In this document: positions 41,602 to 50,441 of the stretch, in pieces
Numbering within the stretch: position 1 is the stretch's first letter
Layout: every line of letters starts with the position of its first letter
Assembly: GCA_000585075.1 (NCBI GenBank)
Contig: JEMY01000001.1
Coordinates: 1-64,000 of the forward strand
Direction of reading: 5' to 3'
DNA from: Candidatus Accumulibacter regalis
GTDB taxonomy: Bacteria; Pseudomonadota; Gammaproteobacteria; Burkholderiales; Rhodocyclaceae
DNA length: 64,000 nt
Position numbers and translations under genes: made by a program
Notes under the pieces: model-generated
Seen by the model: the letters and a program-made list of their open reading frames with translations, nothing else
The model's database searches: none
Told to the model about the DNA's origin: nothing

Positions 41602-43872
41602 TCAGAAGCGCAGGTTCATCCCGGCGTAGAGCGAACGCCCCGTACCCGGCACCGCGGTTCCGTAGAGCATTGGCCGCTGACCAAGATAGGCGCCCCCGAG
41701 GGGCGACTCATAGAGCCTGTCGAAGAGGTTCTCGACGCCGATGTCGACGCGCAGCTGCTTCCATTCGTAGCTGCTGCGCAGGTTGAGCAAACCGTAGCCG
41801 CTCGTCCTTAGCTCATTGCGCGTCTGCGAAACCTGCGTCTTGGCGTCGACGAAGACGCCCTCGACGGTGTTGGTCCACGCTCCCGAGTTCTGCACCAGCG
41901 CCAGCTTCGCGTTCAGAGGCATGATGTGGTACAGATTGTCGTCACTCTGCGAGTTCCGCCCGCGCACGTAGCTCAACACCCCGGTCATCGTCAGCTTGCC
42001 GATTGCGCTCGCTTGCACCAGCGGCAAGCGGGCGCTGGCGTCGGCGCCGTACAGCCGCGCCGTCTGATTGGCAAACTGCAGGTAAACGAAGTTGTCGGTG
42101 CGTGTCAGGTTGCTCCCCTGGCACGGCGACATGCCGCTGCCACCCGAACAGCGAACGGCATCGACGTAATCCTGCACGTAGGTGTAGAAGGGGGTGACGC
42201 TGAGATTCCACTGCTCGCGCGCCGCGTCGTGCCAGCTCGCTGTTGCGCTGATGGTGTGCGCGACCTCCGGATCGAGGTCGACGTCGCCGACGTAACCGTT
42301 GCCGTCACCGAACCAGTTGACCATGTTCATGGCCATCGGGTTGTTGGTCGACCAGGCGTAGCGCTCGTAGAGGTTCGGCGAGCGCGTCTTGCGCGCGTAG
42401 CCTGCCTCGTAGGTCTGCTCGGCAGCTGCCGTGAAGCGCAGCAGGGCGGCGAGATCGATGTTGTGGTCGGTCTTCTGGCGATCGAGAGCGTTGAACGCGC
42501 CGGGAATCGACGCCGGATTTTGCGGGTCGCCGTAGAACGCTGTGTTGTAGCCCTGGACGTCGCCGCTATCCATCCTCACCGTGCTGCTGCGCAGTCCGAG
42601 CTGCGACAGCCATTGCCGACTCCAGCGCGCCTCCCACTCGCCATAGACGTCGAAGCGGTCGCGCTGGCCGTCGTTGATGTTCCAGAAAGTCGATCCCTTC
42701 ATTCCCGCCATCGGCATGGCCACCACCGGCGAGATCGGATCCCACCAGTCGTCCAGCCGGTATTTCTGGTATTCGCCGCCGACCCTGAACAGGTCGCGTT
42801 CCGAGGCGATGATCTCCGCCTTGAGCTGGACGCCGGTGGTCTTGCCGTGCGTATCCATCGGCATGCCGGCCAGGTTCTTCATCGGGCCAGTGGTCTGCAG
42901 CTTGTCGTCGAGGAAGTTCATCGTATGCCGCGTGTCTTCGTGATAGGCGCGCGCCTCCAGCGAACCCCAGGCATACTCGCCCAGATAACGGGCGTTGACC
43001 TGCTGGCTGGTGTTGTCGGTCAAGTCCATGCGTTGATTCGGGAAGCCCTGGTAGGGCATGTGCTGATAGCCGAACTTGAGCTCGAAGAGATGCTCGGCGT
43101 GGCGCAACGCGAGGCTCAGCAACTGGTTTTGCGACTTGTACAGCGACGAGCCCACCTCGTCGCCGTCGAGCCACTCGCTCGTACCCTCCGACAGCCCGGC
43201 GGCCTTGAAACTACCCCCGGCCCGATAGTTGTCCGCCTGCGCCGTCGAGCCCGCATAGTTGAGGCTGAGCATCTCGTTGGCAATCGTCGCCGAGAGATTG
43301 GCGCCGCGACCGTTGCCGTTGCTGCGGTAGAAGGCACCGGCCTGGCCCTTGAGCAGCTTGCCTTCGCCGGCCTTGGCGAACTCCGGAGGCGGCGAGTTGA
43401 CCTGGATCGTTCCGGCAATGCTGTCGCCGCCGGCGCTGACCGGAGTGACGCCGGCAAACAGGGCGACGCTGTCGACGTTGGTCGGGTCGATATACGACAG
43501 CGGCGGATTCATGTGGTTGGCGCACGAGGAAATCAGGTTCATGCCATCGACCTGGATACGGATGCGGTCGTCGGCAAGACCGCGGATCACCGGCAGGCTG
43601 GAAACGCCACCGGCGCCGTAGGTGCTGACACCGGGCAGTGCGTCGAGCAGCCTGGCGCTATCGCTGGTTGCAGCGCGGTAGGGCGCGATGCTCGCCGCGT
43701 CCAGGCGCCTGCTGTCGAGCGGATCGACGTCGTCGATCCGCGCTGCATTGACTACCACTTCCTTCATGACCGGTGTTGCCGAGCTCTCTTGTGCGTCGGC
43801 GTGCTGCCACCCACCGGCCAAGGCCAGCGCCACTGCGACGGCGATCGGTTTTCTCTCCCGCTCCATTGCCAA
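41602..43872 (-). CDS. TonB-dependent copper receptor, OprC/NosA-like
   Basis: TonB-dependent receptor architecture (plug RGLADDRIRIQVDGMNLISSCANHMNPP; C-terminal Phe). CxxxM (C117-M121) and HxM (H316-M318) motifs like those reported for OprC. Confidence 0.88.
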   Translation of the reverse strand: MAMERERKPIAVAVALALAGGWQHADAQESSATPVMKEVVVNAARIDDVDPLDSRRLDAASIAPYRAATSDSARLLDALPGVSTYGAGGVSSLPVIRGLADDRIRIQVDGMNLISSCANHMNPPLSYIDPTNVDSVALFAGVTPVSAGGDSIAGTIQVNSPPPEFAKAGEGKLLKGQAGAFYRSNGNGRGANLSATIANEMLSLNYAGSTAQADNYRAGGSFKAAGLSEGTSEWLDGDEVGSSLYKSQNQLLSLALRHAEHLFELKFGYQHMPYQGFPNQRMDLTDNTSQQVNARYLGEYAWGSLEARAYHEDTRHTMNFLDDKLQTTGPMKNLAGMPMDTHGKTTGVQLKAEIIASERDLFRVGGEYQKYRLDDWWDPISPVVAMPMAGMKGSTFWNINDGQRDRFDVYGEWEARWSRQWLSQLGLRSSTVRMDSGDVQGYNTAFYGDPQNPASIPGAFNALDRQKTDHNIDLAALLRFTAAAEQTYEAGYARKTRSPNLYERYAWSTNNPMAMNMVNWFGDGNGYVGDVDLDPEVAHTISATASWHDAAREQWNLSVTPFYTYVQDYVDAVRCSGGSGMSPCQGSNLTRTDNFVYLQFANQTARLYGADASARLPLVQASAIGKLTMTGVLSYVRGRNSQSDDNLYHIMPLNAKLALVQNSGAWTNTVEGVFVDAKTQVSQTRNELRTSGYGLLNLRSSYEWKQLRVDIGVENLFDRLYESPLGGAYLGQRPMLYGTAVPGTGRSLYAGMNLRF

Positions 43873-43961
43873 CTCTCCCTGAATGTCTTCTTGATGCCGG
43901 GCATTCTAGGGATTGATGCTGCAGTGCGGAATGTGGCAAATCGCCGCACAAGGCACTATTT

Positions 43962-43975
43962 TTGATGAAAATCAA
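43962..43975. promoter_or_regulatory. Perfect FNR/Anr-type box upstream of the copper receptor
   Basis: TTGAT-GAAA-ATCAA, exact match to the TTGAT-N4-ATCAA consensus, about 90 bp upstream of the receptor start. Confidence 0.75.
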
Positions 43976-44075
43976 AAGCTTGTGGCAGGGGACCTGCTGT
44001 CGGTGGGCCTGGTGGCAGCGCGGCCGACGCTTGCGTTACGGGTTCGGCCTGACGCCGCGGTCAGCCGAACGAAGC

Positions 44076-44636
44076 CTAGGGCAGGGTCATGCCGACGGTC
44101 CACATCATGCCTGCCGCGCCGAACAGCACCACCTCTGAACAGAAGCGGTTATAGCAGTAACCCATCGACGGTATGATGGCAGGGGCATACCCCGAGCCGT
44201 TCATCGGGATCTTGTCCTGATACTCACCCCGGTAGCCATGTATGACGCCGGCCGTGAGTTTCAGATAGAACGGTTGCACCGTCTCGACCGGCCGCCAGAG
44301 TAGGCCGCCGTAGGCGTACCAGGTCGCCTGACTATAGGAGTTGTCAAACGTCGCTGCGCCGACCAGCAGCTGACCCTTTAGCCACTGCTTGTCCAGTCGC
44401 CACTCGGGGTTGATCAGAACTTGCGAATTATCGTGCGCGTCATCGGGGTGGAAGTGCACCGAGGCGAGGCTGGTCTGGAGGTAGAAACGGTCGGTTCGCC
44501 ACGGCTCGGGAGCGCTCCAGGCGGCCTTGAAGTCTGCCTGTGGCGGGGTCTGGGGCAGTTGTTGCGCCATGGCGGCCGGAACGGCCAGTGTCGTCGCCGC
44601 CAGTGCGGCAATTGCTCGTTTCAGAAACGGCATCAT
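44076..44636 (-). CDS. Secreted small outer-membrane beta-barrel-like protein (PagP-like possible)
   Basis: Signal peptide ALAATTLAVPAAMAQQ; alternating aromatic/hydrophobic strands (WRTDRFYLQTSLASVHF, WYAYGGLLWRPVE, FYLKLTAGVIHGYRGEYQDK). Confidence 0.65.
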   Translation of the reverse strand: MMPFLKRAIAALAATTLAVPAAMAQQLPQTPPQADFKAAWSAPEPWRTDRFYLQTSLASVHFHPDDAHDNSQVLINPEWRLDKQWLKGQLLVGAATFDNSYSQATWYAYGGLLWRPVETVQPFYLKLTAGVIHGYRGEYQDKIPMNGSGYAPAIIPSMGYCYNRFCSEVVLFGAAGMMWTVGMTLP

Positions 44637-48362: not shown

Positions 48363-50441
48363 ATGAGCACGCCCTCCTCCACCGCCGCCGGCAGGCACCG
48401 CGTACGCGGTGCCTGCCCGCACGATTGCCCGGACACCTGCGCGCTCGAAGTGAGCGTCTGCGACGGTCGCGTCGTCAAGGTCGCCGGCGCGGCCGATCAC
48501 GCGCCGACCGCCGGCGTGCTGTGCACCAAGGTGGCCTTCTACCCCGAGCGCATCTATCACCCGGACCGCCTGCTCCACCCCTTGCGCCGGGTCGGCGGCA
48601 AGGGCCCCGGGGCGAGCTTCGAACGCATTTCCTGGCCGCAGGCGCTGGCGACGATCGCCGATCGCTATCGCCAGATCATCGCCAGCGACGGCGCCGAGGC
48701 GATCGTTCCCTACAGCTACGCCGGCAATTCCGGCCTGCTCGGCTACGGCTCGATGGATCGCCGCTTCTTCCACCGTCTCGGTGCTGCGCAACTCGACCGC
48801 ACGATCTGCGCCAGCGCCGGCGCGATGGGCTACCGCGCGAGCATCGGTGCGAGCGTCGGTTTCGACGTCGAGAACGTCGTCGATGCGCGCCTGATCATCA
48901 TCTGGGGCAGCAACAGCGTCGTCTCGAACCTGCACTTCTGGCGGCTGGCGCAGGAAGCGAAACGACGCGGCGCCCGTCTGATCGCCATCGATCCCTGCCG
49001 CACGGCGACCGCCGACAAGTGCGACCAGCACATCGCGCTGCTGCCCGGAACCGACAGCGCGCTGGCCCTCGGGCTAATGCACGTGCTGATCCGCGACGAG
49101 CTTCTCGATCACGACTACATCGCCCGGCACACGCTCGGCTTCGACGCCCTCAAGGAACGCGCTCGGCAATACCCGCCGGCACGGGTAGCGGCGATCTGTG
49201 GCATCGAAGAAGCCGAGGTCGAGCAGCTCGCGCACGAATACGGCCGCACGACTCCGGCAGCGATCCGCACCAACTACGGCATCAACCGCACCGCCGGCGG
49301 CGGCATGGCGCTGCGCACGCTGGCCTGCCTGCCGGCGCTCACCGGCGCCTGGCGACACCCTGCCGGCGGCATCCTGCTCTCCAGCTCGGGCAACTACCCG
49401 GTGGACAGCGCCGCCCTCGAACGCCCTGATCTGATGCCCCGCCCGGCGCCGCGAACGATCAACATGAGTACCATCGGCCAGGATTTGTTGCGCGCGCGGC
49501 CACCGATCAAGGCGCTGTTCGTCTACAACAGCAATCCGGTGGCCATCGCGCCGCACTCGGCCGAGGTCGTGCGCGGCTTTGCCCGCGACGACCTATTCAC
49601 CGTCGTCCATGATCTGTTCCAGACCGACACCGCCGACTATGCCGACATCCTCCTGCCGGCGACCAGCCACATGGAGCAGCTCGACATCCACAAGTCCTAC
49701 GGGCACCTGCACGTCCAGGTCAATCAGCCGGCGATCCCGCCGCTGGGCGAGGCCCTGTCGAACACCGAGCTTTTCCGCCGCCTGGCGCAGGCGATGGGTT
49801 TCAGCGAGGCGTGCTTTGCCGATTCCGACGAAGACCTTTGCCGCCAGGCCTTCGACTGGAACGACCCGCGCCTGGCCGGGCTGTCGTGGGACAAGCTCAA
49901 GGCCGACGGGCACGCCCGGCTGAACCTGCCGCGCGGCGCAGCGCCCTTTGCCGACGGCGGCTTCCCGACGCCCTCCGGAAAGTGCGAGTTCCACAGCGCG
50001 AGCCTGGCCAGTGCCGGCGTCGACCCGCTGCCCGATTTCACCGCCCCGCGCGAGTGGCGGCAGAGCCCGCTGGCCAGCGAGTTTCCGCTCGCCCTGATCA
50101 CCCCGCCGGCGCGAAACTTTCTCAACACCAGCTTCGCCAACTCGGCGCGCTTCCTGGCGCAGGAAAGGTCGCCGGCCATCCATCTGCATCCGGCCGACGC
50201 GGCCACGCGCGCCATCACCGACCATAGCCTGGTGCGCATCTTCAACCGCCGCGGCGAGTTCCACGCCCGCGCCATCGTCAGCGACCGCGTCCGGCCCGGC
50301 GTGGCGATGGCCACGTCGATCTGGTGGCGCAAGCTTTCGCCCGACGGTCGCAACTGCAACGAAGTGACCAGCCAGGCGCTCACCGACATCGGTGGCGGCG
50401 CCACTTTCTACGATTGCCTGGTCGAGGTTGCCGCGCTTTGA
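48363..50441 (+). CDS. Molybdopterin-dependent oxidoreductase (single-subunit, Fe-S N-terminus)
   Basis: GACPHDCPDTCALEVSVCDGRVVKVAG...GVLCTKVAFYPERIYHPDRLLHPLRRVG; molydopterin-binding C-terminal DHSLVRIFNRRGEFHARAIVSDRVRPGVAM. Confidence 0.93.
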   Translation: MSTPSSTAAGRHRVRGACPHDCPDTCALEVSVCDGRVVKVAGAADHAPTAGVLCTKVAFYPERIYHPDRLLHPLRRVGGKGPGASFERISWPQALATIADRYRQIIASDGAEAIVPYSYAGNSGLLGYGSMDRRFFHRLGAAQLDRTICASAGAMGYRASIGASVGFDVENVVDARLIIIWGSNSVVSNLHFWRLAQEAKRRGARLIAIDPCRTATADKCDQHIALLPGTDSALALGLMHVLIRDELLDHDYIARHTLGFDALKERARQYPPARVAAICGIEEAEVEQLAHEYGRTTPAAIRTNYGINRTAGGGMALRTLACLPALTGAWRHPAGGILLSSSGNYPVDSAALERPDLMPRPAPRTINMSTIGQDLLRARPPIKALFVYNSNPVAIAPHSAEVVRGFARDDLFTVVHDLFQTDTADYADILLPATSHMEQLDIHKSYGHLHVQVNQPAIPPLGEALSNTELFRRLAQAMGFSEACFADSDEDLCRQAFDWNDPRLAGLSWDKLKADGHARLNLPRGAAPFADGGFPTPSGKCEFHSASLASAGVDPLPDFTAPREWRQSPLASEFPLALITPPARNFLNTSFANSARFLAQERSPAIHLHPADAATRAITDHSLVRIFNRRGEFHARAIVSDRVRPGVAMATSIWWRKLSPDGRNCNEVTSQALTDIGGGATFYDCLVEVAAL

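Follow-up and report, generated by a model that had tools for sequence, protein, structure and literature searches.

Little is known of how bacterial copper importers are switched on, and the paper describing the structure of OprC states that nothing is known of the down-regulation of oprC under copper stress. A gene for a TonB-dependent receptor of 754 aa, OprC-like and a predicted copper importer (41602–43866, minus strand), is found in the window, the whole 64,000-nucleotide stretch of Candidatus Accumulibacter regalis DNA that was analysed, and a palindrome of the FNR/Anr type stands upstream of it. The locus raises the question of which regulators set the expression of this receptor, and what part the palindrome plays among them.

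The receptor and its upstream region

The initial annotation had drawn on CxxxM and HxM motifs in predicting oxygen-dependent copper import, and all four copper ligands of OprC are indeed kept in the receptor. The pair C115-x3-M119 of the plug domain (codons at 43510–43524, minus strand) aligns with C143/M147 of OprC, and H314-x-M316 of the barrel (42919–42927, minus strand) aligns with H323/M325; both motifs are invariant in 12 homologs from several classes, as is MPM at residues 335–337. OprC was the best PDB match of the receptor both by sequence and by fold (model pLDDT 71.5, TM 0.70–0.85). Against TIGR01778, the TonB-copper equivalog model of OprC/NosA, the receptor scored 116.8 bits with a cut-off of 472.45 and is not a member of that family. 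As the ligands are kept yet the score is below the cut-off, the receptor is referred to here as OprC-like, and we infer that it transports copper. It is 89% identical to the receptor of Candidatus Accumulibacter appositus, and two receptor groups occur in Accumulibacter, the second sharing approximately 53% identity with the group of the window. A plasmid homolog lies in an operon with genes for DUF2946, MbnP copper-binding and MbnM proteins. Upstream of the receptor gene there is a gene for a secreted/barrel-like protein of 186 aa (44076–44636, minus strand), which some orthologs keep in this place and for which no Pfam or NCBIfam match was found.

The palindrome, TTGATGAAAATCAA at 43962–43975, matches the FNR/Anr consensus TTGAT-N4-ATCAA with zero mismatches, exactly as the initial annotation had claimed. 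In the minus-strand reading it is TTGATTTTCATCAA, embedded in TTTTGATtttcATCAAAA, and it forms the core of an 18-bp palindrome (43960–43977, no strand assigned) with a predicted centre at -72.5. It lies 95 bp from the ATG of the receptor (43866), close to the 90 bp given earlier, and 100 bp beyond the stop codon of the gene for the 186-aa protein. Under a first-order Markov model, the expected number of exact sites is 0.024 for the window and 1.7 for 4.63 Mb, and that of the 18-bp palindrome is 0.004 per genome. Seven exact sites were observed in the genome (4.63 Mb, 85 contigs), and the reversed pattern, serving as a control, gave 0 matches across the same sequence. Three of the seven are situated inside genes; the four intergenic ones belong to the receptor promoter, the region before coxB, the nos cluster and the gap separating a hemerythrin-like gene from uspA. 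A box shared with nos, nir or fix genes had been proposed for a genome-wide scan, and this was borne out for the nos cluster, with coxB and uspA/hemerythrin also beside exact sites.

It had also been remarked that no -10 was apparent at class II spacing, and this holds: TTGCCA is found 22 nt past the FNR box, and a class II FNR promoter was ruled out for the receptor. Further on, the predicted -10 hexamer TAGAAT (43903–43908, minus strand) fits a class I arrangement, and a class I FNR site added to a RegA-type core whose -35 is weak would account for the lack of a -10 at class II spacing. From this hexamer the transcription start is predicted at about 43896 (minus strand), giving a predicted leader of 30 nt, and a ribosome-binding site, GGGAGAG, is present in the sequence at 43873–43879 (minus strand).

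Conservation of the RegA-type dyad and of the FNR box

Downstream of the FNR box the order of elements is GCGGCGATTTGCCAC, then ATTCC, then TAGAAT 24 nt past the first of these. The first element (43933–43947, minus strand; predicted centre -44) is a dyad of the RegA/PrrA/RoxR type, fitting GCGNC-N5-GNCGC with a second half-site, GCCAC, that is one base off GNCGC. The regulon of RegB/RegA (PrrBA, RoxSR) shares such 15-bp sites at respiratory genes, among them the RegA ChIP sites GTGACAATTTGTCCC at cydAB and GCGACCGTTCGTCGC at ccoNOQP of Rhodobacter capsulatus (PMC5359404) and a RoxR site of the same form in Burkholderia (PMC9104464). The block from the dyad to TAGAAT is kept in 11 of 11 promoters of the window's group (group A) and in 10 of 10 of the other, and is widespread beyond the genus. 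A -10-like hexamer follows the dyad by 23–25 nt in all 43 dyad-bearing promoters (24 nt in 35 of them), and the consensus of the dyad is GCGACAATTTGTCGC, also described as GCGRC-N5-GYCRC. The regions upstream of three plasmid homologs of the receptor had no box.

The FNR box is kept in seven of the 11 orthologous promoters of the window's group within Candidatus Accumulibacter, five being exact, one having one mismatch and one being symmetric with two. It was not found in the remaining four, including that of UW-LDO-IC (L019), or in any of the 10 promoters of the second group, and no equivalent site was present in other genera. The FNR-like palindromes of four gammaproteobacterial homologs (L053, L054, L056, L057), which overlap the -10, were not taken as evidence that the site is conserved. 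The main conserved control element is not the FNR box, which is missing from these orthologs, from the second group and from other genera; on the comparison of promoter sequences, it is the RegA-type box that is the older and far more conserved core. In all seven orthologs that keep the FNR box it is spaced exactly 28 bp from the RegA-type box, and identity between orthologs is 97% in its half-sites, 42% in its spacer and 44% in its flanks. Conserved half-sites around a free spacer are the pattern expected of a bound dimer site. The box is thus a real feature which probably works, and FNR control of the receptor is likely but lineage-specific, given its loss from four orthologs and its absence outside the lineage. 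The fixed spacing in seven of 11 orthologs supports the initial annotation in its reading of the FNR box as a control site, but the conserved RegA-type core was missed there.

A RegB carrying the quinone motif GGSANPF is encoded beside a RegA with the family HTH in this genome, their scores (202 of 250 bits for RegA, 248 of 350 bits for RegB) being below the NCBIfam cut-offs, as was the case for the other beta/gamma RegA proteins examined. The presence of RegA and of the dyad was compared in 43 genomes with the receptor. Among beta- and gammaproteobacterial receptor genomes, the dyad was found in 17 of 17 that are RegA-positive vs. two of 18 that are RegA-negative, with a background of 2.6% of random windows from the same loci. 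Two MAGs (L048, L067) have the dyad without a RegA match. RegA occurs without the dyad in six receptor genomes of alphaproteobacteria and in one further genome, so that the link is confined to the beta/gamma lineages. In genomes of the family, RegA was present in 25 of 25 with the dyad vs. 11 of 20 without it. The denitrifier Thiobacillus denitrificans (L038) combines the receptor with RegA and the box. The Fisher p-values for this association overstate its significance, the genomes being related, and serve as a guide only.

A small Crp-family protein (cNMP_binding and HTH_Crp domains) adjoins the receptor or itself follows a RegA-type box in many genomes (L066:6342–6989, L153, L155, L156, L139, L021). 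It was considered as the binder of the dyad and rejected, as it is not encoded in this genome or in others where the dyad persists, and is frequently a target in its own right. In one genus, a gene for a 341-aa outer-membrane-like protein (L139:3038–4063, L142) has a RegA-type box before it and a Crp-like gene after it. At L156 (G024 contig 41), a RegA-boxed Crp-like gene is divergent from a gene for a molybdopterin oxidoreductase like the one at 48363–50441 in the window.

The nosZ promoter and other genes preceded by the dyad

The strict dyad pattern GCGRCRWWWTGYCRC occurs in five places in the genome, and its only intergenic occurrences are in the receptor promoter and the nosZ promoter; the three others are within ppk2, rpoB and a topoisomerase gene (names from reading frames). 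The nosZ gene encodes the Sec-dependent clade II form (924.5 bits). Its promoter (L098:8275–8333, contig 44 of G000) comprises an FNR-like TTGATN4CTCAA, an invariant (C/G)ACAAT 22 nt on, which would make this a class II site, and then the RegA-type GCGRCATATTGCCGC. This dyad is conserved in 18 of 19 matches within the genus, with the FNR-like site upstream. It falls near and after the predicted start of nosZ, vs. -44 at the receptor, and the idea that the receptor has the same promoter as nosZ was rejected: both hold an FNR-like and a RegA-type box, with a geometry that differs and a sign that perhaps does too. Given that the dyad follows the predicted start, RegA may repress nosZ; repression of nos by RegA has been reported in R. 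capsulatus (PMC5359404).

Within the genus, nosZ was found in 17 of 21 genomes with an intact receptor vs. none of seven in which the receptor is broken or absent, nosZ being scored by DNA similarity, by which divergent copies could be missed. Decayed receptor copies with stop codons are found in G005, G011 and G021 (L091, L095, L092), and G007 (L087, L093) has a frameshifted receptor in a genome with no nosZ match.

In genomes of the family, the dyad also stands ahead of a bona fide OprC receptor (L109; TIGR01778, 517.6 bits), another TonB receptor, a PCuAC copper chaperone (L132) and a thioredoxin-like gene, although single cases among these may be due to chance. Such a copper-acquisition set (the OprC receptor at L108/L109, the TonB-dependent receptor, PCuAC and the thioredoxin-like protein) would also be expected if the GCGRC-N5-GYCRC element were the site of a copper-specific regulator, with the receptor being copper-controlled and the correlation with RegA indirect. 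We consider this unlikely, as the element matches known RegA/RoxR site sequences, tracks RegA and occurs at nosZ too, and the small Crp-like neighbor of the receptor, being absent here, cannot be the binder.

FNR, RegA and the proposed control of copper import

The reading of the palindrome as an FNR box requires an FNR homolog, and one protein (L008) has the arrangement C31-x2-C34-x5-C40 together with C122 and the recognition motif ETVSR, and passes the Fnr model NF008365 (244.9 bits, cut-off 228); with these features, FNR itself is present in the genome. There are seven HTH_Crp_2 proteins above cut-off, of which this one alone combines the FNR cysteines with a score that passes the Fnr model. 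From an FNR box alone, FNR cannot be told apart from other members of the Crp/FNR family with the same recognition sequence, and FNR, DNR and NnrR have near-identical target sites, TTGAT-N4-ATCAA. Their near-identity and the presence of seven HTH_Crp_2 proteins would suit a reader of the nitric oxide-sensing DNR/NnrR type, for which the signal would be nitric oxide or denitrification and not oxygen itself. NnrR has moreover been predicted to act over nosA in Brucella (PMC1274295), where an outer-membrane copper receptor would likewise be under a factor of the Crp/FNR family, but in an alphaproteobacterium, with a nitric oxide-type regulator and with no RegA-type box reported. Against such a reader stand the single protein with the FNR cysteines and Fnr-model match, and the published FNR regulon of Accumulibacter, which has the same motif and follows oxygen (PMC6446978); we regard a reader of the DNR/NnrR type as quite unlikely. 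That regulon resembles the present case in motif, genus and target classes (nos, cox, uspA, hemerythrin), although copper and TonB are unmentioned in that paper and its strain, UW-LDO-IC, is among those without the box at the receptor promoter. Least probable of all is that the palindrome is a chance or relic sequence with no transcriptional effect, for while it is missing from four close orthologs and three of the seven exact genomic copies are intragenic, the spacing is constant and the half-sites are conserved around a free spacer in seven orthologs, and the 18-bp palindrome is far rarer by expectation than one per genome.

With FNR as the reader, it is reasonably probable that a working FNR-type operator has been added onto an older, redox-controlled promoter of the OprC-like copper receptor. 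RNA polymerase would use TAGAAT with the poor -35 TTCCGC, and a RegA-family response regulator, as the ancestral controller, would bind GCGGCGATTTGCCAC beside this -35. Once oxygen is exhausted, [4Fe-4S]-FNR would bind TTGATtttcATCAA in the class I position of about -72.5 and raise transcription further. Anoxia most likely raises expression of the receptor in this way, via FNR and in addition to a redox control by RegA, which may itself activate or repress the receptor. No report was found in the literature of RegA acting on a copper receptor; an iron TonB receptor is a target of RegA in Methylomonas (PMC13274454).

Anaerobic induction had been taken by the initial annotation as a known trait of OprC/NosA receptors. 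Anaerobic expression is indeed reported for NosA/OprC of Pseudomonas (PMC8610252), but the trait is not universal, as NosA of Burkholderia cenocepacia decreases at low oxygen. The Pseudomonas receptor shares the CxxxM-HxM ligands and the TonB-dependent receptor fold with that of the window, while differing in identity (approximately 18% in a structural alignment) and in its standing to the TIGR01778 cut-off; no promoter mechanism is known for oprC. The CrtA/BfrG copper receptor with CruR (PMC12914433) is also a respiration-linked copper TonB receptor, and DUF2946, possibly a CruR-type protein, adjoins some homologs of the window's receptor. CrtA/BfrG differs in belonging to another subfamily and in its post-transcriptional control by copper.

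On a wider scale we propose, tentatively and as a view that could well prove wrong, that copper acquisition in beta- and gammaproteobacteria has RegB/RegA (RoxSR) as its ancestral transcriptional controller. The single operator GCGACAATTTGTCGC, 24 bp before the -10, would drive TonB copper receptors of several kinds along with a periplasmic copper chaperone. Copper import would be switched by the quinone pool through its redox state, and FNR would be a later addition in Accumulibacter. An operator this short could be put to the test as the control site of a copper-uptake regulon spanning two bacterial classes.

N2O reductase requires many copper atoms, and denitrifiers that are short of copper release N2O, a strong greenhouse gas. 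Control by FNR and RegA would match copper import to the synthesis of the copper enzymes used for respiration at low oxygen, N2O reductase foremost among them. If this is true, copper import and nosZ would come under common oxygen and redox regulators, by which supply would keep pace with demand in the bacterium chiefly responsible for phosphate removal in wastewater plants.
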